A stretch of DNA of 64,000 nucleotides from Halopenitus malekzadehii (GTDB lineage: Archaea > Halobacteriota > Halobacteria > Halobacteriales > Haloferacaceae). Location of the stretch: contig NZ_FNWU01000004.1 of NCBI RefSeq assembly GCF_900108505.1, positions 1 to 64,000 on the forward strand. Reading direction: 5' to 3'. The notes beneath the pieces are model-generated. The model was not told where the DNA came from, did not search any database, and saw only the letters and a program-made list of their open reading frames with translations. The position numbers were made by a program, and so were the translations under genes. Within the stretch, counting starts at the first letter, position 1, and each line of letters starts with the position of its first letter. Of this stretch, positions 680-17,149 are shown piece after piece.

Positions 680-2110
680 ATGACGGATGAATACGACCTA
701 GCCATCATCGGAGGGGGCATCAGCGGGGCGTCGCTACTGTACACGGTAGCGAAGTTCACCGACGTCGAGGACGTCGTGTTGATCGAAAAGGAGCCGGAGA
801 TCGCGGCGATCAACTCCCATCACACCAACAACTCCCAGACGCTGCACTTCGGGGACATCGAGACGAACTACACCCTGGAAAAGGCCGAGGAGGTTAAGGA
901 GGGTGCCGAGCTGCTGGCCGGCTACCTCGAGAACCACGATCCCGACCGGGAGATGCACAGCAAGCGCAGCAAGATGGTGCTCGCGGTCGGCGACGAGGAG
1001 GTCGAGAAGCTCGAATCGCGGTACCACGACGAGGGCTTTGGCGACCTCTACCCCAAGCTGCGATCGATCGACCGCGAGGAGATCGCGGATCTGGAACCGA
1101 AGGTCGTCGAAGGTCGGGACCCGGATATGAAACTGCGCGCGCTGCAGACGCCCGACGGCTACGTCGTCGACTACGGCGCGGTCTCAAAATCGTTCGTCGA
1201 CCTGGCCGACGAGGAGGACGGCGTCGACGTCTACACCGGCACGACGGTCACCGACATCGACGACGGCGGTGACGGGTTCCGGATCACCACCGACAACGGC
1301 ATCTTCGAGTCCGACGCCACGGTCGTCGCGGCCGGCTCCCACAGCCTCCAGATCGCCAAGGAGATGGGCTACGGGCAGAACATGTCGCTGTTGCCCGTCG
1401 CCGGGAGCTTCTTCCTCGCGGACGACCTGTTGAACGGGAAGGTCTACACCCTGCAGATGAAGAAGCTGCCGTTCGCCGCGGTCCACGGCGACGCCGACGT
1501 TCACGACGGCGACATCACGCGGTTCGGCCCGACTGCGAAGGTCGTGCCCACCCTCGAGCGGGGGCGCTTTTCGACCGCCGGCGACTTCCTCGACGTCTTC
1601 GGCTTCTCGTCCGACTCGTTCCTCAGCTACGCGAACATCCTCGCCGACCGGATCCTGTTGCCCTACGTCCTCCGGAACCTCGTCTACGACCTTCCGGAGG
1701 TCGGCAAGCGCGCCTTCCTCCCGAACGTCCGGAAGGTCGTCCCGACCGTCGAACTCTCCGACATCGATCGGGCGTCGGGCTACGGCGGCGTCAGGCCGCA
1801 GATCGTCGACACGGACGCGAAGGACCTCGATATGGGCGAGGCGAAGATCACCGGCGAGGACATCCTGTTCAACATCACGCCCTCGCCGGGCGCTTCGACC
1901 TGTCTGAAGAACGCGATGGCCGACACCGAGCAGGTGATCGAGTTCCTCGACGGGGACTACGCGTTCGACGTCGACGCGTTCCGCGCGGAGACGATCGGCC
2001 AGTTCCCGCGCGCTGAGGACTCGGACGACGCCACGAACGGCGACGCCGCGGACGATGCCGGTGACACCGGTGACGACGCCGACGTCGCCGAACCCGCTGC
2101 CGCCGACTGA
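680..2110 (+). CDS. FAD-dependent oxidoreductase, malate:quinone oxidoreductase-like
   Basis: The 476-residue protein starts with a dinucleotide-binding strand-turn (GGGISG, residues 11-16) and has the HTNNSQTLHFGDIETNYT block near residue 50, typical of malate:quinone oxidoreductase. That enzyme oxidises malate to oxaloacetate and passes electrons to the quinone pool at the membrane. Length is close to the family's 480-550. The last 30 residues are a low-complexity acidic tail rich in Asp, Ala and Gly, probably a haloadaptation. An A/T-rich promoter-like stretch lies at 628-638. Substrate assignment is by family resemblance; another 2-hydroxyacid is possible. Confidence 0.75.
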   Translation: MTDEYDLAIIGGGISGASLLYTVAKFTDVEDVVLIEKEPEIAAINSHHTNNSQTLHFGDIETNYTLEKAEEVKEGAELLAGYLENHDPDREMHSKRSKMVLAVGDEEVEKLESRYHDEGFGDLYPKLRSIDREEIADLEPKVVEGRDPDMKLRALQTPDGYVVDYGAVSKSFVDLADEEDGVDVYTGTTVTDIDDGGDGFRITTDNGIFESDATVVAAGSHSLQIAKEMGYGQNMSLLPVAGSFFLADDLLNGKVYTLQMKKLPFAAVHGDADVHDGDITRFGPTAKVVPTLERGRFSTAGDFLDVFGFSSDSFLSYANILADRILLPYVLRNLVYDLPEVGKRAFLPNVRKVVPTVELSDIDRASGYGGVRPQIVDTDAKDLDMGEAKITGEDILFNITPSPGASTCLKNAMADTEQVIEFLDGDYAFDVDAFRAETIGQFPRAEDSDDATNGDAADDAGDTGDDADVAEPAAAD

Positions 2111-2223
2111 GCCGGAAGCCATTCCGTCGTCTCGATCGACCACGTTCGACCGCCGCCGTCGTTCCCGCCACCGCTCCCGGCTCGTCCGAACGGCGTCCCT
2201 CGCCGGACGCGCGTCCAGCAAGG

Positions 2224-2231
2224 CTTTATTA
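2224..2231 (+). promoter_or_regulatory. TATA box for the gene at 2259
   Basis: The octamer ctttatta lies 28-35 bases before the ATG at 2259, the haloarchaeal spacing for a leaderless transcript. It supports 2259 over longer in-frame starts upstream that overlap the mqo-like gene. Confidence 0.6.
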
Positions 2232-2258
2232 TCGCTCCCCCGTACCATTCGGCAGACG

Positions 2259-2762
2259 ATGCCCGGCACGTACGTGACATCGGAAACGAACCTGCCGCCC
2301 GACCCGGAGGACGGGGAGATCCGGCTGCAGGTAACCGACCAACACACGAAGGAGATATTCGATACGCGTGCCCGGGTCAGCCGGGATCCCGAATCGCTCT
2401 CGGATCCCGAGCCGCTGACGGTACTGAAGGGCCCCCACGAGAACGTCGAGGAGCGGTGGTACATCGACGTCATCGAGGCCGACGTCGAGGAGCCCGACGT
2501 CGACGTCGACCTGCTGGAGTCGATTATGGAGGAGACCGCCGACCAAAGCACCGTCATCAACACGCGCTCGGCGGAGGTGAAGACGATCCTGCTGTATCTC
2601 GAACGGACCGGCGAGTTCGACTCGGTCTCGGAGGCGAGCCGACGGCTGATGCTCGATCACCTCGCCGAGGAGTATCCGGCGCTGCTTGAGGCATACGTCG
2701 ATCGCAAGGTCGAACGGGATCGGGCCGGGCTCCGATCGGCGTTGACGGACGCCGAGGAATGA
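2259..2762 (+). CDS. Conserved haloarchaeal protein of unknown function
   Basis: A 167-residue acidic soluble protein. The N-terminal half (to about residue 95) is beta-rich in appearance. The C-terminal half is helical, with a segment around SVSEASRRLMLDHLAEEYPA that looks like the helices of a small ribbon-helix-helix or winged-helix DNA-binding domain, but no clear motif can be named. The start was chosen from the TATA box at 2224 and because upstream codons lie over the mqo-like tail. It stands alone between mqo and the ubiD pair, 34 bases before the first ubiD gene. No function is assigned. Confidence 0.7.
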   Translation: MPGTYVTSETNLPPDPEDGEIRLQVTDQHTKEIFDTRARVSRDPESLSDPEPLTVLKGPHENVEERWYIDVIEADVEEPDVDVDLLESIMEETADQSTVINTRSAEVKTILLYLERTGEFDSVSEASRRLMLDHLAEEYPALLEAYVDRKVERDRAGLRSALTDAEE

Positions 2763-2796
2763 TCGGGGACATATCTCACATCGGCGGTGGGCGCCG

Positions 2797-4308
2797 ATGA
2801 CGGTCGACAGCCTCCGGGAGTACCTCGCGGTCCTCGAGTCACACGACGACCTCCAACGCGTCGAGGAGTCGGTGTCCTGGAACCTCGAGGCCAGCGCGAT
2901 CACGATGCTGGCCAACGAGCGCGACGCACGGGTCCCGCTTTTCGAACGGACCGAGGCCGCCAGGCTCGTCGGCGATCCCTACCGCGGGAGCGGGAACCGG
3001 CCCTGGAACCGGATCGCTCTCGGGCTTGACCTCCCCGCCGACCTCTCGCGATTCGAGTTCTACGAGGAGGTGATCGACCGCCTCCAGGACCCGATCGCGC
3101 CGACGGCGGTCGCCGCCGCCGACGCGCCGGTGAAAGACCAGGTCCTGTACGGCGAGGACGTCGACCTCCTCCGGTTCCCGTGGCCATACATCCACGCCGG
3201 CGACGGCGGCCGGTACTCGAACCTCCACACGCTCGTCGCACCGGATCCAGACTCGGAGTGGGTCGACTGGTCGTATCACCGCGCGATGATCCACGACGGC
3301 GAGACCGCAAGCGTCCTCCTGCTTGCCGGCGAACAGACGCCGAACCTCTACTACTACAAGTACGAACGCCGCGGCGAGCCGATGCCGGTCGCGATCGTCG
3401 TCGGCGCAGAGCCGGCCGTCGAGTACACGTCGGTGATGTGGATCCCGACCGACCGCAGCGAGGCCGAGTTCGCCGGCGGGCTCAAGGGCGAACCGATCGA
3501 GCTCGTGGAGTGTGAGACGAACGACCTTCGAGTCCCCGCGAACGCCGAGCTCGTCATCGAGGGGGAGATCGTGCCGGATGCCCGGCGAGACGAAGGGCCG
3601 TTCGGCGACTACTTCGGCTATATGCACGGCCCCCGTCGGTCGATGCCCGTCCTTGAGGTCTCCGCGATCACCCACCGCGAGGACCCGATCATTCCGTTCT
3701 GTGTCGAGGGGTCGGGCGTCGGCTACGCCGAGAACTCCACGAGTTCGATGGAGGCCGGCTGTGTGGGCCCCGACGCAACGCTGGGGCTACGAACCGCCGG
3801 GTTCGACGTCGAGTGCTGTGCGCCGTGGACGTCCACCCCGCGAACGGTCTACGTGATCGCCACCGACCGCACCGAACCGGGCTATCTCCACGAACTCGCC
3901 AACTTCATCTTCACCACCTGGGGGATGTTGCACGTCGACTTCTTCGTCTTCGTCGACGCCGACGTCGAACCCACCGACTCCCGGGCGGTCGTGGAGGCGC
4001 TGGCGCTGCACGCGGATCCGGACGCGGACTTCCACCAGTTCGGCGTCGAGACGATGCCGAAGGTGCCGCTCAACATCTACCAGACCCCCAGCGAGAAGGG
4101 CGACATCCAGACCGGCACCTCGAAGGCGAAGACGGCAAAGACCTACATCGACGCGACTCGATCGTCACCGGCGGTCGATCGTCCACCGGAACTGGAGCGA
4201 CGGGCACGCGAGACGCTCCGTGAGGCGGGCGTGTCGGTCGCTCTCGAGGACGCCCTGCTCGGTGACCGGCCGGATCGTGAACCGACGGCCGGAGGATGGC
4301 GCAGATGA
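2797..4308 (+). CDS. UbiD-family (prenylated-FMN) decarboxylase
   Basis: The 503-residue protein has the full UbiD pattern: an N-terminal region with LREYLAVLE, a middle domain with VIEGEI, the signature EGPFGDYFGY near residues 266-275, and a C-terminal helical region ending in the GTSKAKTAKTYIDATR segment. UbiD enzymes use prenylated FMN to decarboxylate or carboxylate aromatic and alpha,beta-unsaturated acids; the Glu residues around the EGPFG motif belong to the active site. The stop overlaps the next gene, also UbiD-like, by 13 bases, so the two are co-transcribed. Substrate unknown. The neighbourhood (aromatic acyl-CoA genes) suggests an aromatic acid, but menaquinone-type roles are also possible. 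Confidence 0.85.
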   Translation: MTVDSLREYLAVLESHDDLQRVEESVSWNLEASAITMLANERDARVPLFERTEAARLVGDPYRGSGNRPWNRIALGLDLPADLSRFEFYEEVIDRLQDPIAPTAVAAADAPVKDQVLYGEDVDLLRFPWPYIHAGDGGRYSNLHTLVAPDPDSEWVDWSYHRAMIHDGETASVLLLAGEQTPNLYYYKYERRGEPMPVAIVVGAEPAVEYTSVMWIPTDRSEAEFAGGLKGEPIELVECETNDLRVPANAELVIEGEIVPDARRDEGPFGDYFGYMHGPRRSMPVLEVSAITHREDPIIPFCVEGSGVGYAENSTSSMEAGCVGPDATLGLRTAGFDVECCAPWTSTPRTVYVIATDRTEPGYLHELANFIFTTWGMLHVDFFVFVDADVEPTDSRAVVEALALHADPDADFHQFGVETMPKVPLNIYQTPSEKGDIQTGTSKAKTAKTYIDATRSSPAVDRPPELERRARETLREAGVSVALEDALLGDRPDREPTAGGWRR

Positions 4309-5828
4309 ACGGACCCGGAATCGGACTCCGCGATCACCTCTCGCGGCTTCGCGATCGGAGTGATATCGTCTCGATAGACGACCGCGTTCACTGGGACGAG
4401 GAGGCTGCCGCGGTCGCTTCGGTCGCCGCACGCGAGGGCGGACCCGCCGTCATCTTCGAGGAAACGCCCGGACGCGTTCGGTTCGTCGCGGGCGCGTTCG
4501 GCGGCCCCGACCAGCTTGCGGCCCACGATCGCGAACCGTGGGACCGGATCGGCGACGCGTTGACCGCCGGCGAGGACGTCGACGCCGTTCCATCCACCCA
4601 CGCCTATCACGACCTGCTCGATCTGCTTGCCGGGCGAGGGACCGAACCGATCCCGCGGAGCGACGCGGAGCCGGCAGCGACGCCGGACCCGACTCTCGAT
4701 CTGCACACCCTCGGGCTGCCGACGCTGTCTGCCAACGCTCGCCCCCTCGTGTCGCTCGGCGTGCTCGCGGTCGATCTGGGTCCCGATGCCGGTACGACGT
4801 GGGTCCCGGTCCGCGGCGACGTGCGCGGCAGTTCACGGCTCCGGATCATCCTCCCCCGCGCGTTTCACGACCGTCTCGGGCGCGCTCAGAGCGCTACAGT
4901 CGACGGTACTGCGGACGCGGCTGCGACGGGAGTCAGCGTGCTCCTTGGCGTCTCCGCGCCGGTGCTCCTGGCGGCGTTGCAGGGCTGGATCGGCGACCGT
5001 GTCCGAACCGACACGCCCGAGCTTGCAGCCGGTCTCGCGCCCGTGGCCGTCTCCCGTGTGGCCGACAGGATCGTCCCTCGCGACGCCGAGGTTCGGATCG
5101 ACGGCGTTCTCGAACCGACCGCCGATCCGGAGCCGGCCCATCGCGGCGATCGACGATCGGCGACCACGACCGCCGTCGATGCTGCGACCGCGGCCGATGA
5201 GTGGCGCGCGGCGTGGGAAGCCACCTGTGCGACCGCCACGGCCGTGGTGCGAGCTGACCGGATCGCGACCCGGGAGGACCCGATCGTGGCGTTCGCACCG
5301 CTTGGGGCGCCGCTGTCCGATGACACCCAGCTCGTGAGTCTGCTTGAGGCGGCGCGGCTCTCCCGGCGCGTCAACGGCTACTGGGGCGTCTCGCCGGTCC
5401 GATGGGTTCGACTGCCGCCTGAGGGCGGGCTCGGGATCTGTCTGGTCGCCAGCGAGATCCTGTATGCCGGCTTCGAGTGGCAGCTCGCCAACACGCTGTT
5501 CTCCTTTTCGAACCTCTTCGATAAGGTCCTGATCGTCGACGAGAACTCGGATCCGACCGACCTCGCGAAGGCGCTCGACGATATGTGGGTGAAGGCGCAT
5601 CCCGCCAACGACTGGGCCTTCAGCGAGCCGCACGCCCCGAGCGCGACCGCGACGCGCTATCGGCGCGACGGCGAGACCGGCTCGCGGCTCCACATCGCCG
5701 CGACGTGGGACCCGCGCTGGGACGAGGAGTACATCGCGCCCCGTGTCACCTTCGAGCAGTCGTTTCCGGAGAACGTTCGCGAATCTGTTCGGGAGCGGTG
5801 GGACGAGTTCGGGCTCGATAGGGAGTGA
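4296..5828 (+). CDS. Divergent UbiD-family protein without the catalytic motif
   Basis: This 510-residue protein follows the same domain order as its upstream neighbour (N-terminal LRDHLSRLRDRSD, central domain, C-terminal SEILYAGFEWQLANTLFSFSN and a final domain). Where the first protein has EGPFGDYFGY, this one reads LEPTADPEPAHRGDRRSAT, so the conserved catalytic Glu/Gly-rich loop is missing. It overlaps the upstream gene by 13 bases in another frame. The simplest reading is a non-catalytic or regulatory subunit in a heteromeric UbiD complex, as some multi-subunit UbiD carboxylases have. A degenerate paralogue is the alternative, but the frame is intact over 510 codons. Confidence 0.7.
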   Translation: MAQMNGPGIGLRDHLSRLRDRSDIVSIDDRVHWDEEAAAVASVAAREGGPAVIFEETPGRVRFVAGAFGGPDQLAAHDREPWDRIGDALTAGEDVDAVPSTHAYHDLLDLLAGRGTEPIPRSDAEPAATPDPTLDLHTLGLPTLSANARPLVSLGVLAVDLGPDAGTTWVPVRGDVRGSSRLRIILPRAFHDRLGRAQSATVDGTADAAATGVSVLLGVSAPVLLAALQGWIGDRVRTDTPELAAGLAPVAVSRVADRIVPRDAEVRIDGVLEPTADPEPAHRGDRRSATTTAVDAATAADEWRAAWEATCATATAVVRADRIATREDPIVAFAPLGAPLSDDTQLVSLLEAARLSRRVNGYWGVSPVRWVRLPPEGGLGICLVASEILYAGFEWQLANTLFSFSNLFDKVLIVDENSDPTDLAKALDDMWVKAHPANDWAFSEPHAPSATATRYRRDGETGSRLHIAATWDPRWDEEYIAPRVTFEQSFPENVRESVRERWDEFGLDRE

Positions 5829-5852
5829 TCGCGTCGCCCCGAGGTCGACGAC

Positions 5853-7427
5853 CTACTCGGCGTCCGTGGACTCCGCGTCCGTGGGGACGAACTTCACGCC
5901 GTACCGCGGGACGCCCTCCTGTTCGTAGATCCGACGCACCGTCGCGGCCACGGTCTCGCCCACCTCGACGTCGGTCGGGTCGGCGTCGGTCAACTGCCCC
6001 GGAAGCGTGATCTCGTCTTCACCCTCCCCGAGATCGACGATCGCGACCCCGTAGGCGCCGTCACGCTGCTGATGGCCGGTGAACTCCGGCGGTGCACCCC
6101 CCTGACCGATGACGGTCACGGCGCGGACGGTTCCAGTCCGTGGCGCCTCGAACTCCTCGAAGGTAACGCGCTCGTGACACTCCCGGCAGGCGCCCGTCGG
6201 CGGGAACGTCACGCCGCCACACTCCGGACAACGCCCGGCGGCGAGCCGGTACCGCTGGTCGAGCGAGCCCTGCCAGTTCGGCAGACTCACGTGGGCGCCC
6301 CCGCCCGCGACCGCGCCGTCGACGATCGTGCCGCGCTTGCGGAGGTAGTCGTCGTAGGTGATCGACTCCCCGCCGTCGAGTTCGTCGACCCCGGCGACCG
6401 ACAGCGTTCCCCGGCAGGCCATCGAGACCGCGGTGCCGCCGCCGAAGAACGTCGCGACGCCGTGGTGGGCGTCCGGATCGTCCCCGTCGGCGTTCCGGTC
6501 GGCCACCGCCGCGAGCAAACCGATCGGGACCGTGGCGGCGCCCGCGTCGCCGATCCGGTCGGCGACGGTGCCGGCCTGCACCGTCCCGGGATCGACCGGA
6601 AGATCGCCGGTCGCGCGATACGGGAGGCTCCCGTTCGGCTGATGGACCGCGGCGGCGTCGACCGCCTCGAACCCCGACGCCTCGAGGGGCCCGCCGTCGT
6701 CGGCGAGCGTCTCGGTCGCCGCGGTGATCGACTCGCGGATCGCCGTTCGCTGGTAGGTCGTGATGTCGAGGGTGTCGACCGTCTCGGCGCCGCGCTCGCG
6801 GTGACGGATCCCCGGATACTCCTCGACGTGCCAGGCCGGATCGCCGACCTCGACCGCGGGGTCGGCCGACAGCACGAACGCGGCCGCGCCGGCGCCCATC
6901 GGGTGGTCCGTCTCGGCCGGGTCGCCCGTCGGGCAGTCGGAGACGACGACCAGCGCGGTGCCCGACCTAGCCGCTTCGAGTCCGCGGGCAAGCGCCTCGC
7001 CGCCGGCCGCGGTCGATCCGCGAACGGTCGCGGTCGCCACGTCCGTCGGGAGGCCGAGCGCGCGAACGAGCCGCGGCGTGAACTCGCCCTCCTCCATCGG
7101 CGGCGTCGTCGTCGCGGTCACGACGAGGTCGATTCGGCCGGGGTCCACGACCGTCGTGGGCGCCTCCGCCGCCCCCTCGTCTCCACCGGCGAGCACGCGC
7201 TCGGCGGCGGCGACCGCCATCGTCAGTGCGTCCTCGTCGGCGCCCGCGACGGCCTTCCGCTCGACACCGGGGGCGTGGCTCGTGCCCCAGGCGTCCGCGA
7301 TCTCCTCACTCGAGAGCCGGAACGCCGGCAGTCGGATCGCCGCGGTCTCGATGCCGACCGGATCGGCGTCCGTCGCGGTCCCGCCGTCGGTCGCGAGATC
7401 GCCCGCGACGTCACGCTCGTCGCTCAT
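5853..7427 (-). CDS. HMG-CoA-synthase-like domain fused to DUF35 (zinc ribbon/OB fold)
   Basis: The first 370 residues of this 524-residue protein resemble the thiolase-fold HMG-CoA synthase/KAS III group (IRLPAFRLSSEEIADAWG, PMGAGAAAFVLS, VHQPNGSLPY). The last 150 are a DUF35 module: a zinc ribbon CPEC...CREC near residue 390 and an OB fold. The expected acylation-site cysteine is absent: around residues 133-141 the sequence is TATVRGSTA, while the true synthase at the window's right end has FACVSG. The gene overlaps the upstream thiolase by four bases (ATGA). In archaea DUF35 proteins bridge thiolase and HMG-CoA synthase and channel the intermediate. Here the bridge is fused to a probably inactive synthase-like domain, suggesting a structural partner of the thiolase. 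Confidence 0.75.
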   Translation of the reverse strand: MSDERDVAGDLATDGGTATDADPVGIETAAIRLPAFRLSSEEIADAWGTSHAPGVERKAVAGADEDALTMAVAAAERVLAGGDEGAAEAPTTVVDPGRIDLVVTATTTPPMEEGEFTPRLVRALGLPTDVATATVRGSTAAGGEALARGLEAARSGTALVVVSDCPTGDPAETDHPMGAGAAAFVLSADPAVEVGDPAWHVEEYPGIRHRERGAETVDTLDITTYQRTAIRESITAATETLADDGGPLEASGFEAVDAAAVHQPNGSLPYRATGDLPVDPGTVQAGTVADRIGDAGAATVPIGLLAAVADRNADGDDPDAHHGVATFFGGGTAVSMACRGTLSVAGVDELDGGESITYDDYLRKRGTIVDGAVAGGGAHVSLPNWQGSLDQRYRLAAGRCPECGGVTFPPTGACRECHERVTFEEFEAPRTGTVRAVTVIGQGGAPPEFTGHQQRDGAYGVAIVDLGEGEDEITLPGQLTDADPTDVEVGETVAATVRRIYEQEGVPRYGVKFVPTDAESTDAE

Positions 7428-8596
7428 GCGTCCACCTCCGTGCGCTCGAAGACGTGAACCGTCACCCCGCCGCCGCTGCCGCCGACGTTGTGGGTGAGCC
7501 CGTAGGTCGGGTCGTCGACCTGGACGTGGGCCTCCCCGCGCAGCTGGAAGAACGCCTCGACGACCTGGCCGGTTCCGGTGGCGCCGATCGGGTGGCCCTT
7601 CGATTTGAGGCCGCCGCTGGTGTTCGTCGGCAGCTCGCCGTCGGGATCGACGACGCCTTCGCGGAGCAGCCGGCCGGCCTCGCCTCGCTCACAGAACCCG
7701 AGGTCGTCGTACGCCAGCAGCTCGGCGATCGCGAAGCAGTCGTGAACCTCGGCGAAATCGAGGTCGTCGGGAGTGACTCCCGCCTCCGCGTACGCCTCCT
7801 CGCCCGCTTGCACGCTCGCGGGGATGCTCGTGAGCGATTCGCGCTGGAACAGCCCCACGCGCCCGCTCGCTGCGCCGGCGCCGGCGATCTTGACGGACGG
7901 GCCGTCGAACTCGGCGGCGACCTCCTCGCTGGCCAGCAGCGCCGCGCTGGCGCCGTCGGTGGTCGGACAGCAGTGATAGAGGTTGAGCGGGTCTGCGACG
8001 CCGGGTGCCGAGTTGGCGTCCTCGAGCGAACACTCGAAGCCGAGGTGCGCCTTCGGGTTCTTCGCGCCGTTGCCGTGGTTTTTGACCGCGACCCGGGAGA
8101 GGTCCTCGACGGTGGCGTCGTACTCGTCGAGGTAGGCGCTTGCCATCTGTGCGTAGACGCCGGCGAAGGTCGTCCCGCTCATCCGCTCCCACTCGGTCTC
8201 GCCGCTGACGCCGAGCCACCACTTGGTCTGGTCGGCGCTCGTGTCGGTCATCACCTCGTAGCCGCCCGCCAACGCGACGTCGGCGGTGCCGGCCCGAACG
8301 GCCGTCAGCGCCGAGCGGAACGAGTAGCCGCTTGCCGCACACGCGTTCTCGACGCGGGTCGTCGGGACGCCGTGCAGTCCCAGGTGCTCGGTGACCGCCG
8401 GGCTGCTCAGGCCGATCTGTCGGCCGCCGACGCCGAGGGTTCCGAGGAACGCCTCGTCGATGCGGTCGGGGTCCAGTTTGCCGCCCACGCTCTCCAGCGC
8501 GTTCTCGTAGGCCGTCTCGAACAGCGTCAGGTAGGTCTCGTCGGGGAAGGAGCCGAACGGCGACTGGCCGGCCCCGATGACGTACACATCCCTCAT
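7424..8596 (-). CDS. Thiolase (acetyl-CoA acetyltransferase/SCP-x-like)
   Basis: The 390-residue thiolase carries its nucleophilic cysteine at residue 86 (RVENACAASG) and the GHPIGATG histidine motif near residue 340. Its C-terminus ends HNVGGSGGGVTVHVFER, as in SCP-x-type thiolases, instead of the Cys-containing loop of bacterial biosynthetic thiolases. It condenses or cleaves 3-oxoacyl-CoA with CoA. The start at 8596 was chosen because MRDVYVIGAG is the family N-terminus and a TATA box lies 25-32 bases upstream. It is the first gene of a two-gene operon with the HMGCS-like/DUF35 fusion, with which it probably forms a complex. It could supply the last step of the phenylacetate or fatty-acid route here, or acetoacetyl-CoA for mevalonate. 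Confidence 0.85.
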   Translation of the reverse strand: MRDVYVIGAGQSPFGSFPDETYLTLFETAYENALESVGGKLDPDRIDEAFLGTLGVGGRQIGLSSPAVTEHLGLHGVPTTRVENACAASGYSFRSALTAVRAGTADVALAGGYEVMTDTSADQTKWWLGVSGETEWERMSGTTFAGVYAQMASAYLDEYDATVEDLSRVAVKNHGNGAKNPKAHLGFECSLEDANSAPGVADPLNLYHCCPTTDGASAALLASEEVAAEFDGPSVKIAGAGAASGRVGLFQRESLTSIPASVQAGEEAYAEAGVTPDDLDFAEVHDCFAIAELLAYDDLGFCERGEAGRLLREGVVDPDGELPTNTSGGLKSKGHPIGATGTGQVVEAFFQLRGEAHVQVDDPTYGLTHNVGGSGGGVTVHVFERTEVDA

Positions 8597-8620
8597 ACCC
8601 GCCAGTGGGAGGTCGTTCCA

Positions 8621-8628
8621 CATAAATC
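8621..8628 (-). promoter_or_regulatory. TATA box of the thiolase operon
   Basis: On the minus strand the octamer gatttatg sits 25-32 bases before the thiolase ATG at 8596. It supports a leaderless start there and excludes the longer open frame that runs back across the divergent gene. Confidence 0.6.
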
Positions 8629-8670
8629 GTCCCCTCCGGCGGCGCCGCAGCACGCACGACTCGCGTGAGA

Positions 8671-8733
8671 TCGCGTGTCGTTTGCACGAACTCGCGTGCT
8701 GTTTGCGCGAACTCGGGTACCGTTCGCGTGAGC
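8671..8733. repeat. 21-bp imperfect tandem repeat, three copies
   Basis: Units at 8671-8691, 8692-8712 and 8713-8733 share the core tcgcgtg...gtttgc.cgaac. They lie between the divergent thiolase and acyl-CoA dehydrogenase promoters, so they could bind a shared regulator, but similar arrays occur in many unrelated spacers of this window. Confidence 0.7.
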
Positions 8734-8741
8734 CCGCGGGA

Positions 8742-8748
8742 CTTATTA
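8742..8748 (+). promoter_or_regulatory. TATA box of the acyl-CoA dehydrogenase gene
   Basis: The heptamer cttatta is 24-30 bases before the ATG at 8772, the spacing expected for a leaderless haloarchaeal transcript. It decides the start at 8772. Confidence 0.6.
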
Positions 8749-8771
8749 GGGCGTGTGGCGCTATCACGCCT

Positions 8772-9926
8772 ATGAGCCTCATCGAGAGCGCGCTCTCCGA
8801 GGAGCATCGGGAGTTCCGTGACCGGGCGGACGCCTTCGCAACCGACGTGGTCGCCCCGCGGGCCGAGGCGATCGAGGACGCCGACGAGTTCCCCGACGAC
8901 GTGCTCGCGGAAGCCGGCGACCGTGGACTCCTCGGCGTCCTTCTGCCGGAGGAATACGGTGGGGAAGGGTCCGACTTCCTCTCATACTGTCTCGTGATCG
9001 AGCGGATCGCGCAGGCGAGCGGCGCGGTCGCCGAGAGCATCCAGGGCCACACCTTCGCGGCGTTACCCATCGCCCACCACGGCACGGACGCCCAGAAGGA
9101 GGCGTACCTCGAGCCGATGGCCCGCGGCGAGTCGATCGGCTCGATGCTGCTCACCGAGCCCGACGCGGGCAGTTCGCCGACCGAGCTGTCGACGGTCGCC
9201 GAGGAGACGGACGACGGCTACGCGATCTCCGGGCAGAAGGCCTTCGGAACGAACGCCGGCGTCGCGGACGTCCACCTCGTCGTCGCGCGGAAACGGCCGG
9301 CGCCCGAGGAGGGCCACGGCGTCAGCGTCTTCCTCGTTCCGAGCCCCGAGGAGGCACCCGGCTTCACCTTCGACCGCGTGGAGTTCATGGGGATGCGTGG
9401 GCACGTCACCGGGGATTCCACCTTCGAGGACGTCGCCGTTCCCGCGGACGCGCTGCTCGGCGAGGTCGGACAGGGCTTCCGGATCGCGATGGGGACGATC
9501 GACATGGCCCGAACCGGCCTCGGCGCGATCGCGACCGGCATCGCCACGGCGGCCTTCGAGGAGGCGATCGACTACGCCGGCGACCGCGAACAGGGCGGCA
9601 ACCCGGTCGGCGAGTATCAGGCCGTTCAGGTGCTCGTCGCCGAGATGGACGCCAAGCTCGACGGCGCACGCCACCTCGTCTATAACTCGGCCCACGACAT
9701 CGCCGCCGGCGAGGGCGACACCCGCGCCTCCAGCAAGGCGAAGTACGTCGCAAGCGACGTCGTCGAGTACGTCACCCGCAACGCGATCCAGATCCACGGC
9801 GGGACGGGCTACCGGACGGATTACCCCCTCGAACGGTACTTCCGCGACGCGAAGATCCTCAGCCTCATCGGCGGGACGACCGAGATCCAGAAGACGACGG
9901 TCGCCGAGCACGCGCTCGAGTTATAA
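8772..9926 (+). CDS. Acyl-CoA dehydrogenase family protein
   Basis: A 384-residue flavoprotein with the ACAD pattern: SMLLTEPDAGSS (FAD/substrate loop, about residue 120), the RDAKI and IGGTTEIQK motifs near the C-terminus, and usual family length. It should introduce a trans-2,3 double bond into an acyl-CoA, passing electrons to ETF. The usual base positions are odd: the MCAD-type Glu (EGT) is Gly here (LIGGTTEIQ), and at the alternative helix-G position, where isovaleryl-CoA dehydrogenase has LDLER, this protein has IDMAR. Either another acid acts as base or the substrate differs. It is transcribed away from the thiolase operon. Substrate unknown. Confidence 0.85.
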   Translation: MSLIESALSEEHREFRDRADAFATDVVAPRAEAIEDADEFPDDVLAEAGDRGLLGVLLPEEYGGEGSDFLSYCLVIERIAQASGAVAESIQGHTFAALPIAHHGTDAQKEAYLEPMARGESIGSMLLTEPDAGSSPTELSTVAEETDDGYAISGQKAFGTNAGVADVHLVVARKRPAPEEGHGVSVFLVPSPEEAPGFTFDRVEFMGMRGHVTGDSTFEDVAVPADALLGEVGQGFRIAMGTIDMARTGLGAIATGIATAAFEEAIDYAGDREQGGNPVGEYQAVQVLVAEMDAKLDGARHLVYNSAHDIAAGEGDTRASSKAKYVASDVVEYVTRNAIQIHGGTGYRTDYPLERYFRDAKILSLIGGTTEIQKTTVAEHALEL

Positions 9927-9939
9927 GCTCACTGCTGGC

Positions 9940-10025
9940 TGAGGCACAACCGGCACCAACCGCGTGAGACGCCACCGGTGCCAACTGCCTGAGGCGTCAC
10001 CGGCACCAACTGCCTGAGACGCCAC
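9940..10025. repeat. 25-bp tandem repeat, three and a half copies, in a 326-base spacer
   Basis: Units 9940-9964, 9965-9989 and 9990-10014, plus a partial 10015-10025, follow the pattern tgag.c..caccggcaccaac. They directly follow the stop of the acyl-CoA dehydrogenase gene. The rest of the spacer to 10252 lies between two convergent genes; I see no convincing gene, promoter or RNA in it. Confidence 0.8.
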
Positions 10026-10252
10026 GATCGGAGTCCACAGCCGGACACCGACCCTTCCCGACATCACTCGTCGCCACGTTCCCTGTCGGGGTCGATCCGG
10101 AACCCGACACGGTCGCTCCCGGCGGGACTACCGTGCGCACGGCGGAGCGACCGTTCGAAGGATATTCGCGCGGCTCGCGGACGACACTGCCGAAAAAACG
10201 TGAGAACCGATCTGGGACTTGCGTCTCCGTCCGTGGGACCGCGTTGTCGTCG

Positions 10253-11089
10253 TTACTCGGCGTTGCCCGGTTCCTTCTCGCCCTTCTCGACGGCGAGGAA
10301 GTCGGGGTCGCGCTTGCCGAGGTAGGCGTCGACGCCCTCCTTGGCGATGTCCGAGCCGAGCAGGCGGTTCTGCAGCTCACGCTCGTGGGCGAGCGCGTCC
10401 GACAGTGGCAGTTCGAGCCCCTCGTTGACGGCGAGCTTGTTGTTGCCAACCGCGAGGTTCGGCTTCTGGACGATCTGGTCGGCGAACTCGCGGGCCGCGT
10501 CCTCGATCTCCTCCGGCGGGTGGATCTCGTCGAAGATGCCGCGCTCGGTCGCCTCCTCGGGGGTCAGCGTCTCGCCCGTGATCATCATCTTCAGCGCGGT
10601 CGAGCGGTCGATGTACCGCGGCAGCAGCTGCGTGCCGGCCTCGCCGGCGATGAGGCCCAGGTGGACCTCCGGCATCCCGACGCTGTAGTCGTCGTCGTTG
10701 CCGACGTAGCGGAAGTCACACGCGAGCGCGAGCTCGAGGCCGCCGCCCATACAGTGGCCGTTGACCATCGCGATGAAGATCGTGTCTGTGGTCCGGATCT
10801 TCATGATGACTTCCTTGCTCGTCTGGCTCGCGTAGCCGATCTGCTGGCCGGACTTCTCCTGCAGGACGCCGATGTCGAAGCCGGTCGAGAAGATCTTCTC
10901 GTTCGCGCTGCCGAACAGAACCACGCGGACGTCGTCGTCGAACCGGATCACTTCGACGGCGCGCTGGAGCTCCAGCAGGACGTCGATGTGGTGTGCGTTC
11001 GCCGGCGGTCGGTTCAATCGGAGATACCCGACGTGGTCGTCGAGGTTGGTCTCGAAGTACTCGAGGTCGAGCTCGGTGAACGATTGCAT
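10253..11089 (-). CDS. Enoyl-CoA hydratase/isomerase family protein
   Basis: The 278-residue crotonase-fold protein keeps both hydratase glutamates: in GGGLELALACD and in GMPEVHLG. The oxyanion-hole segments are also intact, so hydration of a trans-2-enoyl-CoA is likely. The N-terminus (about 15 residues before the fold) and a charged C-terminal tail (EKGEKEPGNAE) are slightly long. It lies downstream of the paa epoxidase operon on the same strand but has its own TATA box after a 279-base gap. A PaaF-like role in phenylacetate beta-oxidation is inferred from context only. The gap itself, apart from the promoter, shows nothing recognisable. Confidence 0.8.
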   Translation of the reverse strand: MQSFTELDLEYFETNLDDHVGYLRLNRPPANAHHIDVLLELQRAVEVIRFDDDVRVVLFGSANEKIFSTGFDIGVLQEKSGQQIGYASQTSKEVIMKIRTTDTIFIAMVNGHCMGGGLELALACDFRYVGNDDDYSVGMPEVHLGLIAGEAGTQLLPRYIDRSTALKMMITGETLTPEEATERGIFDEIHPPEEIEDAAREFADQIVQKPNLAVGNNKLAVNEGLELPLSDALAHERELQNRLLGSDIAKEGVDAYLGKRDPDFLAVEKGEKEPGNAE

Positions 11090-11110
11090 GTACCCAAACG
11101 ATCGGAAGCA

Positions 11111-11120
11111 GTATATAAAT
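11111..11120 (-). promoter_or_regulatory. TATA box of the enoyl-CoA hydratase gene
   Basis: Minus-strand atttatatac lies 22-31 bases before the start at 11089. It indicates that this gene is transcribed separately from the paa operon upstream. Confidence 0.65.
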
Positions 11121-11368
11121 AGCTTCTCATACCGAACGACGGTGATATCGGCACAGCAGCCGCTCTCGACGCGATCTACGTCGGATCCCTCTCGTCGGAC
11201 TCCGGATGGTGGACCACGGATGGCGACGCCGGTGGTACGGAACGCCGCGCCGATCGCCGACGGCGACGCCGGGTTATCCCGATCGCGACGTCGAGTTCGA
11301 CCCGACGATCGGGTCGACCCGTTCCGATTCGGCTCGTTCCGGCCCGATCCGGATCGTGGATGCGGCCC

Positions 11369-11641
11369 TCAGCTCGTGTCGGGCCGCTTGCCGTCGTACT
11401 TGATCCGCTCGAAGACGGTGTGGCAGCCGTTGCAGTAGTACTGCGACTTCGAGATCTCGCTGCCGAACTGCGACTCCTGCTCGACGTCCGTGGAGTCACA
11501 GAACGGACATCCGACCGTCGGCTCGTCGGCGTCGCGGTCGGTCTCGGCGGCGGCGTCAGCAGCGTCCTCGACGTCGGACTCCGCGCCCTCGACGTCGGGG
11601 TCCACCTCCCCGCCGGTCCGGCCCTCTGATGCCACCGTCAT
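11369..11641 (-). CDS. PaaD-type zinc-ribbon protein (detached C-terminal half of PaaD)
   Basis: This 90-residue protein begins with an acidic linker of about 45 residues and ends in a zinc ribbon: CPFCDSTDVEQES then YYCNGCHTVFERIKYDG. Bacterial PaaD (PaaJ in some schemes) joins a MIP18/DUF59 domain to this ribbon in one chain. Here the DUF59 half is a separate gene, 12655-13065, three genes earlier in the same operon. The ATG at 11641 shares one base with the paaC stop, which fixes the start. PaaD is needed for maturation of the phenylacetyl-CoA epoxidase, probably of its metal centre. Confidence 0.8.
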   Translation of the reverse strand: MTVASEGRTGGEVDPDVEGAESDVEDAADAAAETDRDADEPTVGCPFCDSTDVEQESQFGSEISKSQYYCNGCHTVFERIKYDGKRPDTS

Positions 11642-12405
11642 CAGTCCATCACGTACAGTTCGTTGCTGTCCCCGCGGATCTGAACGAGGTCGGCTTCGGG
11701 GATCGAGCCGCCGTTCACGCGGCGACGCGTCTCGTTCCATGCCTCGATGTCGGGGACCGAGCGGTCCACGTTCTCGAGTGAGACCGGCGTTCCCTCGAAG
11801 AGGTCCTCGAAGTGGCCGAGGTACGACTCGCGGATCTCGCTTACAGGACGGTCGGTGAACCCGGCCTCGTAGAGCGGGTCCGACTCGGCGTCGTATTCGG
11901 CGGGGCCGATGAACGCGAGCGTGTGCGGCAGCGTCTCCTCGAGCGTCGACTGGATGGCGTCGGTCTCCTTCTCGGCGAGGCTCTCGAGACGGGCGTCGTG
12001 GTACTCCAGGTGGAAGTACTCGTCCTCGCCCATCTTCGTCACCATTCCGCCGAAGTCCTCGTGGTCGATCGCATCGAGCAGGTACCACGCGGCGCGATCG
12101 GCGGTGGCCATCGTCGTGAGATATTCGGGCCACTCGCCGTCGATCGAATCGAGGCTGGCGACGTTGTTGACCGCCTCGGGGTCACGGTGTCCATCGAGCC
12201 AGTCCGAGTCGCGCCCCTGGTCCTCGAGGAGCCGGAAGAGCTGTCGGACGTGGCCGACCTCCTCCTGGGCGGCGCTTGCGCCGCCGATGTCGTCCTCCAG
12301 CGAGGGACCGGTCAGGGACCACTGTGCGTAGCGGTGTCCAAGAACGATCTTGGTGTCCGTGATCGCCTGGACGTAATCCACGGCGATGTCGGGCCACTCG
12401 CTCAT
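11641..12405 (-). CDS. paaC: 1,2-phenylacetyl-CoA epoxidase subunit PaaC
   Basis: The 254-residue protein is the structural, non-catalytic subunit that pairs with PaaA in the diiron phenylacetyl-CoA epoxidase, which converts phenylacetyl-CoA to the 1,2-epoxide. It is a ferritin-like four-helix protein; ALGHRYAQWSLTGPSLEDD-like and AAQEEVGHVRQLFRLLE segments match PaaC. Length agrees with bacterial PaaC (about 250). It overlaps paaB by four bases upstream and shares one base with the zinc-ribbon gene downstream, so translation is probably coupled. Confidence 0.9.
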   Translation of the reverse strand: MSEWPDIAVDYVQAITDTKIVLGHRYAQWSLTGPSLEDDIGGASAAQEEVGHVRQLFRLLEDQGRDSDWLDGHRDPEAVNNVASLDSIDGEWPEYLTTMATADRAAWYLLDAIDHEDFGGMVTKMGEDEYFHLEYHDARLESLAEKETDAIQSTLEETLPHTLAFIGPAEYDAESDPLYEAGFTDRPVSEIRESYLGHFEDLFEGTPVSLENVDRSVPDIEAWNETRRRVNGGSIPEADLVQIRGDSNELYVMD

Positions 12406-12608
12406 GCTGGGGAGAGCACCTCCTGCTCGATGTTGACTTCGTGAACGTCCTCTCGGCGAACGACCGCCAGGAAGTCCCAGTCCTCCTCGTCGAAGGTGTT
12501 GTGTGCGTACAGCTTCGCGAGGCGATCGCTGTCCGCCTGTACGTTTCCGATGTGGAGCGTCTCATCGCCCTGGTTGATCCGGGCGAAGACTTCGTAGTAT
12601 CGTGTCAT
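12402..12608 (-). CDS. paaB: 1,2-phenylacetyl-CoA epoxidase subunit PaaB
   Basis: A 68-residue protein (MTRYYEVFARINQGDETLHIGN) of the PaaB family, which holds the PaaA-PaaC heterodimers together in the epoxidase. Bacterial PaaB is about 95 residues, so this one is short, ending soon after the VVRREDVHEV strand. It overlaps paaC by four bases. The 46-base gap upstream is rich in AC runs on the coding strand and has no obvious ribosome binding site. Confidence 0.88.
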   Translation of the reverse strand: MTRYYEVFARINQGDETLHIGNVQADSDRLAKLYAHNTFDEEDWDFLAVVRREDVHEVNIEQEVLSPA

Positions 12609-12654
12609 CGTTGAGTGGTAGTGTGTTTCGTGTGGTGTGTGTCCGTCGTTCGTC

Positions 12655-13065
12655 TCACAGGCTGATCCCCGATTCGTTCATCTTCCGGCGGACGTCCGCC
12701 GTCAACATCTCCTTCGACCAGACGGGCTCCCAGACGACGTCCACGTCGACCGAGTCCACCTCCTCGTACACGAGTAGGCAGCTCTCGATGTCGTTGTGGA
12801 TCATGTCGTAGGCGGGACAGCCCATACAGGGAAAGGTCATCTCGACGTCGACGTGACCGTCCGCGTAGTCGACGTCGTAGATCATCCCCATCTCGACGAG
12901 GCTCACCGGGATGTGCGGGTCCGGGATCTCGTCGACGACGTCCCAGGCCTCCGCCTCGAAGCCGGTCGCGTTCCGGCGGCGGCGCTCGATGAAGTCGCTC
13001 GAGGTCGCGGGCGCCGTCGAGTCGTCCGGCGTCGAATCGTCAGGCGTCGGGGTGCTACAGGACAT
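12655..13065 (-). CDS. paaD: PaaD, MIP18/DUF59 half
   Basis: The 136-residue protein has a low-complexity Ser/Thr/Asp start of about 20 residues, then a DUF59 (MIP18) domain: EIPDPHIPVSLVEMGMIYDV, followed by the FPCMGCPAYDMI cysteine loop. This domain is found in iron-sulfur and metal-centre assembly factors. In bacteria it is fused to a zinc ribbon as PaaD; here the ribbon is the separate gene at 11369-11641. It starts one base after the paaA stop and belongs to the same transcript. Confidence 0.85.
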   Translation of the reverse strand: MSCSTPTPDDSTPDDSTAPATSSDFIERRRRNATGFEAEAWDVVDEIPDPHIPVSLVEMGMIYDVDYADGHVDVEMTFPCMGCPAYDMIHNDIESCLLVYEEVDSVDVDVVWEPVWSKEMLTADVRRKMNESGISL

Positions 13066-13066
13066 C

Positions 13067-13987
13067 TTACACCTGCACTTCGACCGTCTTCGACTGGATC
13101 AGGTCGACGTATTTCTCGTTGGCCGGGCCACGACCGCGCCAGCGGTCGATGACGTCGTCCCACGAGATAGGCTCGTCGAAGCGCCATTCCTTGTTGTCCT
13201 CGTCGAAGGCGACCGGGAACTCGTAATCGAGGACGTACTCGTCGGACGCCTCGTCATAGTGGGCCGGGACGTCCAGATCGAGTTCGTTCATCAGCGGCAT
13301 CGCACGTTCGAGCCAGTCCTCGCGCAGCTCGTCGTTCGTCTTGCCCTTGATGCAGTACTCGAGCTGGTCGTCGTGTTTCTTCTTGTCGTCCGGCAGGCCG
13401 AACCACTCGATCGCCATCGGGAACATCCAGTCGATGGCGTCCTGGAGCTTCGCCCGCGTCTTGTCGCTTTTGTTGGCGAGCCGACGCATCCAGGTCTCGC
13501 CGTGGCGCAGGTGGAACTGCTCCTCCTTGTTCACCTTCGTGAGCGCGCGCTTCCAGGGCGCGTAGGAGGTGTTCTCGTGAACGTCGCTGAGGAGGACGAT
13601 CCCCGCGCGATCGAACATCCCGTGGGCGCTGACGAGTTCCGCGAAATTGTCGATGTGCTGGTCGAATCCGTACGTGTTCCGGAACTCGTGGGGTTCACGC
13701 TCGTAGATGAGTTCGTGACGGTCCTCGCCGAGATCCTCGAGGAGTCGGTAGGCGATGTGGCCGTGACCGAGCTCGTCCTGGATGACGCTGATACAGGACG
13801 CACGGGCGTCCATCGAGGGGGCGTTGAGCGACTGCTCGTAGTAGGCCGGTGCGCTCATCAGTTCGGTGTCACCCGAAACCGTGAGGATCTGCTTGAGTGC
13901 CTTCTCGTAGCCCTCAGTCATCTCCTCGCGCGATTCGATCATCTTGCCGTTCTGTACTTGCTCTTTGAGTTTCGCTTCCGTGGGCAT
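13067..13987 (-). CDS. paaA: 1,2-phenylacetyl-CoA epoxidase catalytic subunit PaaA
   Basis: The 306-residue catalytic subunit carries the diiron ligands in two helix pairs, seen as QDELGHGHIAYR and EEQFHLRHGETW (ExxH motifs). The enzyme inserts one oxygen atom into the ring of phenylacetyl-CoA, opening the aerobic phenylacetate pathway. Length matches bacterial PaaA (about 310). It is the first gene of a five-gene operon paaA-paaD-paaB-paaC-zinc ribbon. No PaaE-type flavin reductase is present; the 2Fe-2S ferredoxin at 14643, encoded on the other strand, is a candidate electron donor. Confidence 0.93.
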   Translation of the reverse strand: MPTEAKLKEQVQNGKMIESREEMTEGYEKALKQILTVSGDTELMSAPAYYEQSLNAPSMDARASCISVIQDELGHGHIAYRLLEDLGEDRHELIYEREPHEFRNTYGFDQHIDNFAELVSAHGMFDRAGIVLLSDVHENTSYAPWKRALTKVNKEEQFHLRHGETWMRRLANKSDKTRAKLQDAIDWMFPMAIEWFGLPDDKKKHDDQLEYCIKGKTNDELREDWLERAMPLMNELDLDVPAHYDEASDEYVLDYEFPVAFDEDNKEWRFDEPISWDDVIDRWRGRGPANEKYVDLIQSKTVEVQV

Positions 13988-14020
13988 AGCTGACTCGCTA
14001 TCATCCCTTTGGCTGCGGAG

Positions 14021-14043: not shown

Positions 14044-14110
14044 GAACGGCGTAATTGACCGCCCGAACGTGGCGGGCTCATCCCGGTGAGCCGGCCGTCG
14101 TGGAGGGCGA

Positions 14111-14640: not shown

Positions 14641-14642
14641 GT

Positions 14643-14936
14643 ATGGTCGAGACCCATACCGTCGAGTTCGTCGACCTCGATCAGACGATCGAGGTCGCGG
14701 AGAACGAGCCGATCCTGGAGGCCGCCGAGGCCGCCGGGATCGATATGCCCTACCAGTGCCGGATGGGCGTCTGTGGGGTCTGTTCGGCCAAGCTCGCCGG
14801 CGACAGCGACCCGAGCGACGTCGATCAGACCGAGGGAATGTTCCTCTCCGACTCGGAGAAGGAGGAGGGATACGTGTTGACCTGTATCGCGAAGCCGCGT
14901 ACGGACCTGAAAATCGAAACCGACCGCGGTCCCTGA
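14643..14936 (+). CDS. 2Fe-2S plant-type ferredoxin
   Basis: The 97-residue protein has the plant/chloroplast-type ligand pattern C-x4-C-x2-C with a distant fourth Cys (Cys39, 44, 47 and 81; PYQCRMGVCGVCSAKL and VLTCIA). It is short compared with the main haloarchaeal ferredoxin, which has an extra acidic N-terminal domain. It starts two bases after the acetyltransferase stop. Since the neighbouring epoxidase operon has no paaE reductase, this protein may pass electrons to PaaA; that role is inferred. Confidence 0.88.
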   Translation: MVETHTVEFVDLDQTIEVAENEPILEAAEAAGIDMPYQCRMGVCGVCSAKLAGDSDPSDVDQTEGMFLSDSEKEEGYVLTCIAKPRTDLKIETDRGP

Positions 14937-15514: not shown

Positions 15515-17149
15515 CTACTGACGTTCGCGCTCGCGTAGTTCCGTCCGGCGGATCTTGCCCGTCTCGGTCCGCGGGAGGGACTCGACGAACTCGACCGCGC
15601 GGGGGTACTTGTAGGGCGCGAGCGTGTCCTTGACGTGGTTCTGGATCTTCTCGACGAGCGCGTCGTCGCCCGTGACGCCCTCGGCGGTGACGACGAACGC
15701 CTTCACGATCTCACCGCGCTCCTCGTGCGGGCTGCCGACGACGGCGACCTCGGAGGTCTCCTCGACCTCCTCGACGACTGCCTCGACCTCGGGGCCGGGG
15801 ATGTTGTACCCGCTGGAGACGATGAGGTCGTCGTTGCGTGATTTGTACTCGAAGCGTCCGTCCTCTCGCTGGACGAAGATGTCGCCCGGCAGCGACCAGC
15901 CATCCGCGACGGCGTCCTCCTGTTTTTCGGGTCGGTTCCAGTACTCGACGCCGGTCGGACCGCGAACCGCCAGGAGCCCGGCCTCGCCGCGTTCACACTC
16001 TTCACCCGTGTCCGGGTCGATGATCTTCCCCTCGTAGCCGGGGGCCGCGAAGCCGGTCGCGGTCGGATCGATCTCCTCGTCGTGTCGGTGGCTGATGAAG
16101 ATGTGGAGCATCTCCGTCGTGCCGATCCCGTCGAGAAGCTTGATGCCGTATTCCTCCTTGACGTTCTCGAAGGTGGTCGGCGTGAGCGGCTCGCCGGCGC
16201 TGAGCCCGAGCCGGAGCGAGGAGAGGTCGTACTCGTCGGTCGCGTTCGGATGCTGGGAGAGCATCTGGTTGTAGCCGGTCGGGATCGAGCACATCACGGT
16301 GATGCCGTGCTCCTCGGTCGCCTCGAGGAGGTCCTCCGGTGAGGCGTCCTCGACCAGGCTCACGCTCGCGCCGAATCGAAGCGGGAACGTGACCAGATCG
16401 CCGTAGCCGTACGCGAACGGCAGCGGCGGATTACCCCCGAAGACGTCGTCCTCGGTCGGCTCGATGCAGTAGCGTGCGTATCCGTCGGCGGTCGACAGCA
16501 CGTGTCGGTGGGTGTGGACCGCGCCCTTCGGTCGACCCGTCGTTCCGCTCGTGTACAGCATCAACGCGAGGTCGTCGCGCTCGGTCGGGTACGCGTCGAG
16601 TTCGGAGCTGGCTGCCTCGAGGAGCTCGTCGTAGTCGTGGTGGTCGTGCTCGACGCCGTTGCGCTGGGCCACGATCACGTCGTCGACCGTGTCGAGATCC
16701 GGGAGCGCGTTGTTGACCTCCTCGACCAGGCCGTCGTAGACGACGACTGCCGACGCCTCGGCGTTGTTGATGATGTAGCGAAGCTCCTTCGCACGCAGCA
16801 GCTTCATCGACGGGAGCGCGACCGCGCCGATCTTCTGAACGGCCAGACACGTAACGATCGCCTCGGGGCGGTTCGGGAACCGAGCAACGACGCGGTCGCC
16901 GGCCTCGACGCCGAGGTCGGTCAGCGCGTTCCCCATCCGGTTGACCCGTTCCTGCAGCTCGGCGTAGGTGATCTCCTCGTCCTCGAAGTGGATCGCCACG
17001 GCGTCGCCGTGGCCGTTACGGACGTGGACGTCGACGAGCTGTTCGGCGGCGTTGATCTCCTGTGAGTAGTGGAGCTCCGGGAGCGGGTGGATGTAATCCG
17101 GCCGGTCCGATTCGTCCGGGAGGTACTCCTGTGGTACTGATGGCTGCAT
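15515..17149 (-). CDS. AMP-forming acyl-CoA synthetase (benzoate/phenylacetate-CoA ligase-like)
   Basis: The 544-residue ANL-family enzyme has the phosphate-binding loop YTSGTTGRPKG at residues 199-209, the GTTEMLHIF motif, the hinge GYNIPGPEVEAVV and the C-terminal catalytic lysine in PRTETGKIRR (about residue 537). It activates a carboxylic acid to an acyl-AMP and then the CoA thioester. Resemblance is to the aryl-CoA (benzoate/2-aminobenzoate-CoA) ligase group rather than to short bacterial PaaK. Given the paa operon next door, it is a good candidate for phenylacetate or another aromatic acid activation. It is transcribed divergently from a PaaG-like gene. Confidence 0.85.
   Translation of the reverse strand: MQPSVPQEYLPDESDRPDYIHPLPELHYSQEINAAEQLVDVHVRNGHGDAVAIHFEDEEITYAELQERVNRMGNALTDLGVEAGDRVVARFPNRPEAIVTCLAVQKIGAVALPSMKLLRAKELRYIINNAEASAVVVYDGLVEEVNNALPDLDTVDDVIVAQRNGVEHDHHDYDELLEAASSELDAYPTERDDLALMLYTSGTTGRPKGAVHTHRHVLSTADGYARYCIEPTEDDVFGGNPPLPFAYGYGDLVTFPLRFGASVSLVEDASPEDLLEATEEHGITVMCSIPTGYNQMLSQHPNATDEYDLSSLRLGLSAGEPLTPTTFENVKEEYGIKLLDGIGTTEMLHIFISHRHDEEIDPTATGFAAPGYEGKIIDPDTGEECERGEAGLLAVRGPTGVEYWNRPEKQEDAVADGWSLPGDIFVQREDGRFEYKSRNDDLIVSSGYNIPGPEVEAVVEEVEETSEVAVVGSPHEERGEIVKAFVVTAEGVTGDDALVEKIQNHVKDTLAPYKYPRAVEFVESLPRTETGKIRRTELRERERQ

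Follow-up and report, generated by a model that had tools for sequence, protein, structure and literature searches.

Among the described systems that most resemble the locus analysed here is PhlABC (PpATase, PDB 5m3k/5mg5) of Pseudomonas protegens, which combines an active thiolase-like subunit (PhlC), a dead HMG-CoA-synthase-like subunit (PhlA, with Cys changed to Gly and Glu changed to Cys), and a DUF35 subunit (PhlB). PhlA has neither the catalytic Cys nor the Glu, catalysis is by PhlC alone, and the three subunits line one cavity; functional enzyme was obtained only on joint expression of all three genes (PMC6392133). A dead synthase subunit as such is therefore not new. However, PhlABC is encoded by three separate genes and transfers acyl groups to phenols in antibiotic biosynthesis. 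The MtACAT-HMGCS complex of Methanothermococcus (PMC6392133, PMC12329534) has the same three folds and contains the nearest thiolase and DUF35 by sequence, but its synthase is a working enzyme of the mevalonate pathway. Another three-component acyltransferase is MucABC of Streptococcus macacae (PDB 9vbo/9vbt), whose synthase-like subunit lacks Cys at the aligned acyl site (RASENSG); MucABC is bacterial, however, and its chains are separate.

Benzoylsuccinyl-CoA thiolase BbsAB (PDB 7pxp) pairs a thiolase with a DUF35 zinc subunit in aromatic catabolism, but without a synthase-like domain. In the steroid aldolases Ltp2-ChsH2 and Sal-Shy (PDB 6ok1/9myr), the DUF35 that carries the thiolase fold is itself joined to a further domain. 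These enzymes are retro-aldolases with YDHF or YDCY motifs and with DUF35 fused to hydratases, whereas the thiolase described here has HDCF and a nucleophilic Cys. Finally, bacterial PaaJ performs the two thiolytic steps that we propose below for the haloarchaeal pair, but it is a classical thiolase, from another thiolase family, without a DUF35 or synthase partner.

We examined a window of 64,000 nucleotides from the haloarchaeon Halopenitus malekzadehii. Unlike PhlABC, the haloarchaeal system has its synthase half and DUF35 in one protein, it has an ACAT/SCP2-type thiolase, and it lies in a catabolic cluster; unlike MtACAT-HMGCS, its synthase half is without the catalytic Cys, Glu, and Asn and its parts are fused. 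What is new is that the two parts are fused, that this form is conserved in 74 of the 170 genomes (19 of 28 genera) of the window's family, the Haloferacaceae, and that it is linked to a pathway.

Three components encoded by two genes

The thiolase gene (7424..8596, minus strand, 390 aa) is followed on the same strand by the fusion gene (5853..7427, 524 aa), and the stop of the first overlaps the start of the second by 4 bases. The initial annotation had placed a thiolase operon at 5853-8596, and its coordinates were exact. It had also described the downstream gene as a synthase-like half joined to a DUF35 zinc-ribbon/OB module, and profile searches matched both halves. Thus, the thiolase, the HMG-CoA-synthase-like domain, and DUF35 are all encoded together in two adjacent genes.

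The synthase-like domain (residues 24-370, 6318..7358, minus strand) matches models of archaeal HMG-CoA synthases over residues 24-316 (NF003274, E = 9e-29; TIGR00748, E = 4e-14). Neither score comes near the curated cut-off (100.6 against 244 bits for NF003274, and 52.5 against 353 bits for TIGR00748), and the catalytic Cys and Glu are absent, so the fusion falls outside the archaeal HMG-CoA synthases as these models define them. The DUF35 module (residues 385-516, 5880..6275, minus strand) does belong to the DUF35/ChsH2 family: residues 391-420 are a zf-ChsH2 domain (32.5 bits, Pfam cut-off 23.2), residues 427-497 are an OB_ChsH2_C domain (28.9 bits, cut-off 27.1), and the four zinc cysteines (Cys400, Cys403, Cys414, and Cys417) are invariant in 47 homologues. 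In a single-chain AlphaFold model of the fusion (mean pLDDT 84.9, pTM 0.89), the best structural matches were PhlA, the Methanothermococcus synthase (MtHMGCS), and MucABC, all of them from three-component complexes.

The active-site residues of the thiolase are intact, as had been noted for its Cys. It contains the nucleophile Cys86, HDCF (residues 285-288), GHPIGATG (residues 334-341), and His369; in an alignment of 16 homologues, Cys86 and GHPIGATG never vary and HDCF is missing from only a few. SCP2-type thiolases are marked by HDCF and by loss of the CxGGG cysteine, and HDCF may provide a second catalytic Cys (PMC7682436, PMC12329534). The window's thiolase is of this type: HDCF replaces NEAF, the GHP motif is present, and THNVGG stands where classical thiolases have CxGGG. 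Conversely, it is not a classical PaaJ/PcaF thiolase by TIGR01930 and related models (100.6 against 240.6 bits, and no CxGGG Cys). Its nearest structure is 6esq_A, the Methanothermococcus thiolase of the thiolase/synthase/DUF35 complex.

Loss of the synthase active site

The initial annotation had reported that the acylation site of the fusion has no cysteine, and this is correct: residues 133-141 read ATVRGSTAA. The motifs GSES (with the catalytic Glu), EFACKAGT (Cys), FHxPN (His), and GNTYS (Asn) are common to the genuine synthases of methanogens and other archaea. When the fusion is aligned to these synthases, the Cys column holds Thr139 (codon 7011..7013, minus strand, just after Ser138), the Glu column holds Thr107, and the Asn column holds Asp294. 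Of the Cys/His/Glu set, only His262 is retained.

The same losses are found throughout the family. Cys, Glu, and Asn are absent from 83 of 83 haloarchaeal copies and His is kept in 28 of them, whereas all four residues are kept in the seven genuine archaeal synthases compared (7/7). In the 83 copies, the Glu column is Thr or Ser, the Cys column is Thr, Ala, or Pro, and the Asn column is Asp (Ser once). Another 11 archaeal Cys-less relatives, from outside the haloarchaeal group, have none of the four residues. As judged from these residues, the synthase half is catalytically dead in the whole family and not just in the window's copy.

Both halves of the fusion are under purifying selection, and the synthase half is not decaying: between congeners, dN/dS is about 0.2 for the fusion (about 0.24 for the synthase half and 0.08 for the DUF35 half) and 0.05 for the thiolase. 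This value, together with the recurrence of the architecture and of the losses in all homologues examined, implies that the missing residues are not due to chance. We also considered whether the fusion is a pseudogene, which dN/dS and its broad conservation rule out, or an active synthase with a shifted Cys. The latter was rejected because Cys165 and Cys338 lie away from the site and because this half is entirely free of cysteine in 24 of the 94 Cys-less archaeal members. (The fusion of Haloferax alexandrinus has just four cysteines, all of them zinc ligands.)

The genome also encodes its own HMG-CoA synthase, which starts near 63.6 kb (position 63597) and runs past the end of the window. As the initial annotation stated, it retains its Cys (FACVSGTQA). 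It scores 69 bits against TIGR00748 (cut-off 353), which indicates a different class of synthase; this is the longer class (447 aa) and not the archaeal type found in the DUF35 complex.

Distribution of the fusion and its relatives

Thiolase and fusion are nearly always paired. In the family set, the thiolase adjoins the fusion at 39 of 40 loci, and the exception is a fragmentary contig (L060). In the named set, which consists of the best 80 loci from 169 relatives in a contig scan and is entirely haloarchaeal, they adjoin at 75 loci; the other five are at contig ends or have ORF calls that run on upstream.

At two haloarchaeal loci (L200 and L201), the pseudo-synthase and DUF35 are separate neighbouring genes, which fits the view that the two halves of the fusion are counterparts of PhlA and PhlB. 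L200 also carries a second and more distant set of Cys-less synthase, DUF35, and thiolase. In other archaea of the phylum (L190-L195 and L198), a Cys-less synthase-DUF35 fusion comes before the thiolase, in the reverse gene order. In the genome of the window itself, another thiolase is followed by a stand-alone DUF35 gene (L076, G000:C27:145187-146835), and no synthase-like gene was detected at that locus.

In a quick tree, all of the Cys-less forms, including PhlA, are apart from the genuine synthases, and the haloarchaeal fusions split into type I, which includes the window's copy, and type II. PhlA is placed beside the archaeal Cys-less forms with a support of 87, on long branches, so this placement may reflect long-branch attraction.

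Association with phenylacetate genes

PaaA is the catalytic subunit of phenylacetyl-CoA epoxidase. Among the 170 genomes, 71 have both the fusion and PaaA, 3 have the fusion alone, 4 have PaaA alone, and 92 have neither (raw counts). At least six genera (g4, g13, g19, g21, g23, and g26, some with boundaries deduced from numbering) include concordant members both with and without the two genes. PaaA is within 25 kb of the fusion in only 46 of 74 loci. At the best 80 named haloarchaeal loci, the flanking genes include a PaaF-type hydratase (39 loci), a PaaH-type dehydrogenase (38), an aldehyde dehydrogenase (24), an acyl-CoA dehydrogenase (17), and haloarchaeal PaaK (12).

On a plasmid of Haloferax alexandrinus, the gene order is paaABCDE, aldehyde dehydrogenase, paaI, MaoC, paaK, thiolase, fusion, 3-hydroxyacyl-CoA dehydrogenase (paaH-type), and enoyl-CoA hydratase (paaF-type), and the fusion's partner is the only thiolase annotated in this cluster. 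Silver induces cds131 ("hydroxymethylglutaryl-CoA synthase") and cds132 ("paaJ") of Hfx. alexandrinus together with paaABCDHIK (PMC10694973). These two genes sit between paaH and paaK, and the authors proposed a role for the HMG-CoA synthase in membrane biogenesis (PMC10694973). Given the matching gene order, cds131 is very likely the fusion (the strain differs from that of the plasmid record), and hence the pair is apparently co-induced with the paa genes. Overall, the pair travels with genes for the degradation of phenylacetate-type aromatic acids and probably serves this degradation, not isoprenoid synthesis as is usually annotated.

It is possible that a classical thiolase alone has the PaaJ role, but its presence does not track PaaA. 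Classical thiolases are encoded by all 75 of the 75 PaaA-positive genomes and by 59 PaaA-negative genomes as well, so they are not specific to PaaA. The genome of the window has one, outside the window's cluster, and the paa cluster of Haloferax mediterranei has one beside the pair. Where a classical thiolase adjoins the pair, it may share the two thiolytic steps with the pair, or the pair may have some other function.

The paa-like cluster in the window

The window's copy lies in a conserved haloarchaeal paa-like cluster (2055-17149) that combines a PaaA/PaaC pair of low score with two UbiD genes, a ferredoxin, and a synthetase that resembles benzoate-CoA ligase; we found no described pathway that matches this cluster. 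On the minus strand are a PaaA-like oxygenase subunit (13067..13987; PF05138, 131 bits to TIGR02156 with a cut-off of 280), a PaaD/MIP18-like FeS assembly protein (12655..13065), a small ORF of 68 aa in the position of PaaB (12402..12608; the syntenic ORF in Haladaptatus is annotated as PaaB family), a PaaC-like oxygenase subunit (11641..12405), a PaaD-type zinc ribbon (11369..11639, boundaries approximate; PF23451), an enoyl-CoA hydratase/isomerase (10253..11089), and an acyl-CoA synthetase near the benzoate-CoA ligase family (15515..17149; 362 bits, cut-off 375). On the plus strand are an acyl-CoA dehydrogenase (8769..9926, with the start codon used in the search), a UbiD-family decarboxylase (2797..4308), a second UbiD-like protein (4296..5828), and a 2Fe-2S ferredoxin (14643..14936) that is syntenic in the clusters of Halalkalicoccus and Haladaptatus. 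In the second UbiD-like protein, the domain search detected only UbiD_N and UbiD_C and not the catalytic domain between them; this protein may therefore serve the first UbiD as a subunit without catalytic activity. The cluster as a whole is syntenic with plasmids of Halalkalicoccus jeotgali and Haladaptatus pallidirubidus, and it looks like a second, uncharacterised aerobic aryl-CoA pathway.

Proposed function of the pair

The explanation that we favor, with some confidence, is that the two proteins act as a heteromeric thiolase, with the fusion as both scaffold and chamber but without a catalytic part, and that the pair has a PaaJ-like role in phenylacetyl-CoA-type degradation in haloarchaea. 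The two genes would specify one enzyme. The thiolase would do all of the carbon-carbon chemistry, with Cys86 as the nucleophile together with HDCF and the His of the GHP motif. The DUF35 half would dock on the thiolase, as DUF35 does in PhlABC, in benzoylsuccinyl-CoA thiolase, and in the methanogen thiolase/synthase complex. The dead synthase half would provide a wall, contacts to CoA, and a chamber beside the thiolase site for larger or charged acyl-CoA. The initial annotation had suggested a thiolase-only complex with a structural pseudo-synthase, and the family-wide loss of Cys, Glu, and Asn, the complete thiolase site, the constant adjacency, and the precedent of PhlABC all argue for such a complex. 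Like PhlABC, the fusion has a synthase-like part without the catalytic Cys and Glu. We infer the physical complex and the chamber from these comparisons.

Which reaction the pair serves had been left open, and the gene clusters and the co-occurrence with PaaA narrow it to phenylacetyl-CoA-type catabolism. In most haloarchaea with the fusion, the pair would carry out the thiolytic step or steps of phenylacetyl-CoA degradation, acting on ring-opened acyl-CoA intermediates; the equivalent role of PaaJ is to cleave 3-oxo-5,6-dehydrosuberyl-CoA and 3-oxoadipyl-CoA. It is from the clusters and the co-occurrence only that we infer a PaaJ function (3-oxoadipyl-CoA cleavage). The window's copy would serve the equivalent step of the second paa-like cluster, with its PaaA-like and PaaC-like subunits, two UbiD proteins, ligase, acyl-CoA dehydrogenase, and hydratases. 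Points against the favored explanation include that the PaaA of the window's cluster is only PaaA-like and that the thiolase is outside the classical PaaJ/PcaF family.

A second explanation is that the pair is a thiolase complex for acyl-CoA in general beta-oxidation, which is found in aromatic clusters by chance, or that it covers one thiolytic step beside a classical thiolase. This would fit with the nearby genes for acyl-CoA dehydrogenase, hydratase, and dehydrogenase and with the classical thiolase that adjoins the pair in some clusters. Still, it seems unlikely because the co-occurrence with PaaA is nearly perfect and because the pair is missing from most PaaA-negative relatives that have a classical thiolase.

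Third, the pair could be an acyltransferase like PhlABC, CoA-independent or CoA-dependent, which forms a carbon-carbon bond on an acceptor molecule, aromatic or not. Among solved folds the synthase half is nearest to PhlA, with which it also groups in the tree, and both have GD where the synthase has GN. We consider this improbable, as the thiolase is closer to MtACAT (40% identity) than to PhlC (25-26%) and has the HDCF cysteine of SCP2-type thiolases, and as the neighbouring genes are for acyl-CoA catabolism and do not form a biosynthetic cluster.

Finally, it is hardly credible that the fusion has remained an HMG-CoA or ketoacyl synthase that uses Thr or Ser as its nucleophile, which is the assumption in annotation and in one transcriptome paper: Ser138-Thr139 is at the site, the fold is retained, and some copies keep His, but Glu, Cys, and Asn are gone family-wide, two thirds of the haloarchaeal forms have lost His too, the scores are far under the synthase cut-offs, and the genome has a complete synthase of its own.

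Returning to a heteromeric thiolase with a PaaJ-like role, we can tentatively extend it, although we would not bet on the extension. Haloarchaea might run two aerobic CoA-dependent aromatic pathways, one for phenylacetate and another, so far undescribed, with the PaaA-like oxygenase and the UbiD pair. In both, the place of PaaJ might be taken by a thiolase that is active only when complexed with its pseudo-synthase-DUF35 partner, and the dead site of this partner might now act as a chamber for the substrate or as a channel for its transfer.

A survey rates archaeal phenylacetate pathways as partial or incomplete (PMC13186573). If our proposal is correct, then one gap in this pathway may be closed by a thiolase that has a dead synthase as its partner, and the annotation of these genes should change. 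The family would also be a large natural series, with fused and split forms and with His kept or lost, for studying what an enzyme's dead copy does in a complex. As to the current names, RefSeq calls the fusion a "zinc ribbon domain-containing protein" (copy L210, 19971-21539) and other records call it an HMG-CoA synthase, and both names hide its dead synthase.
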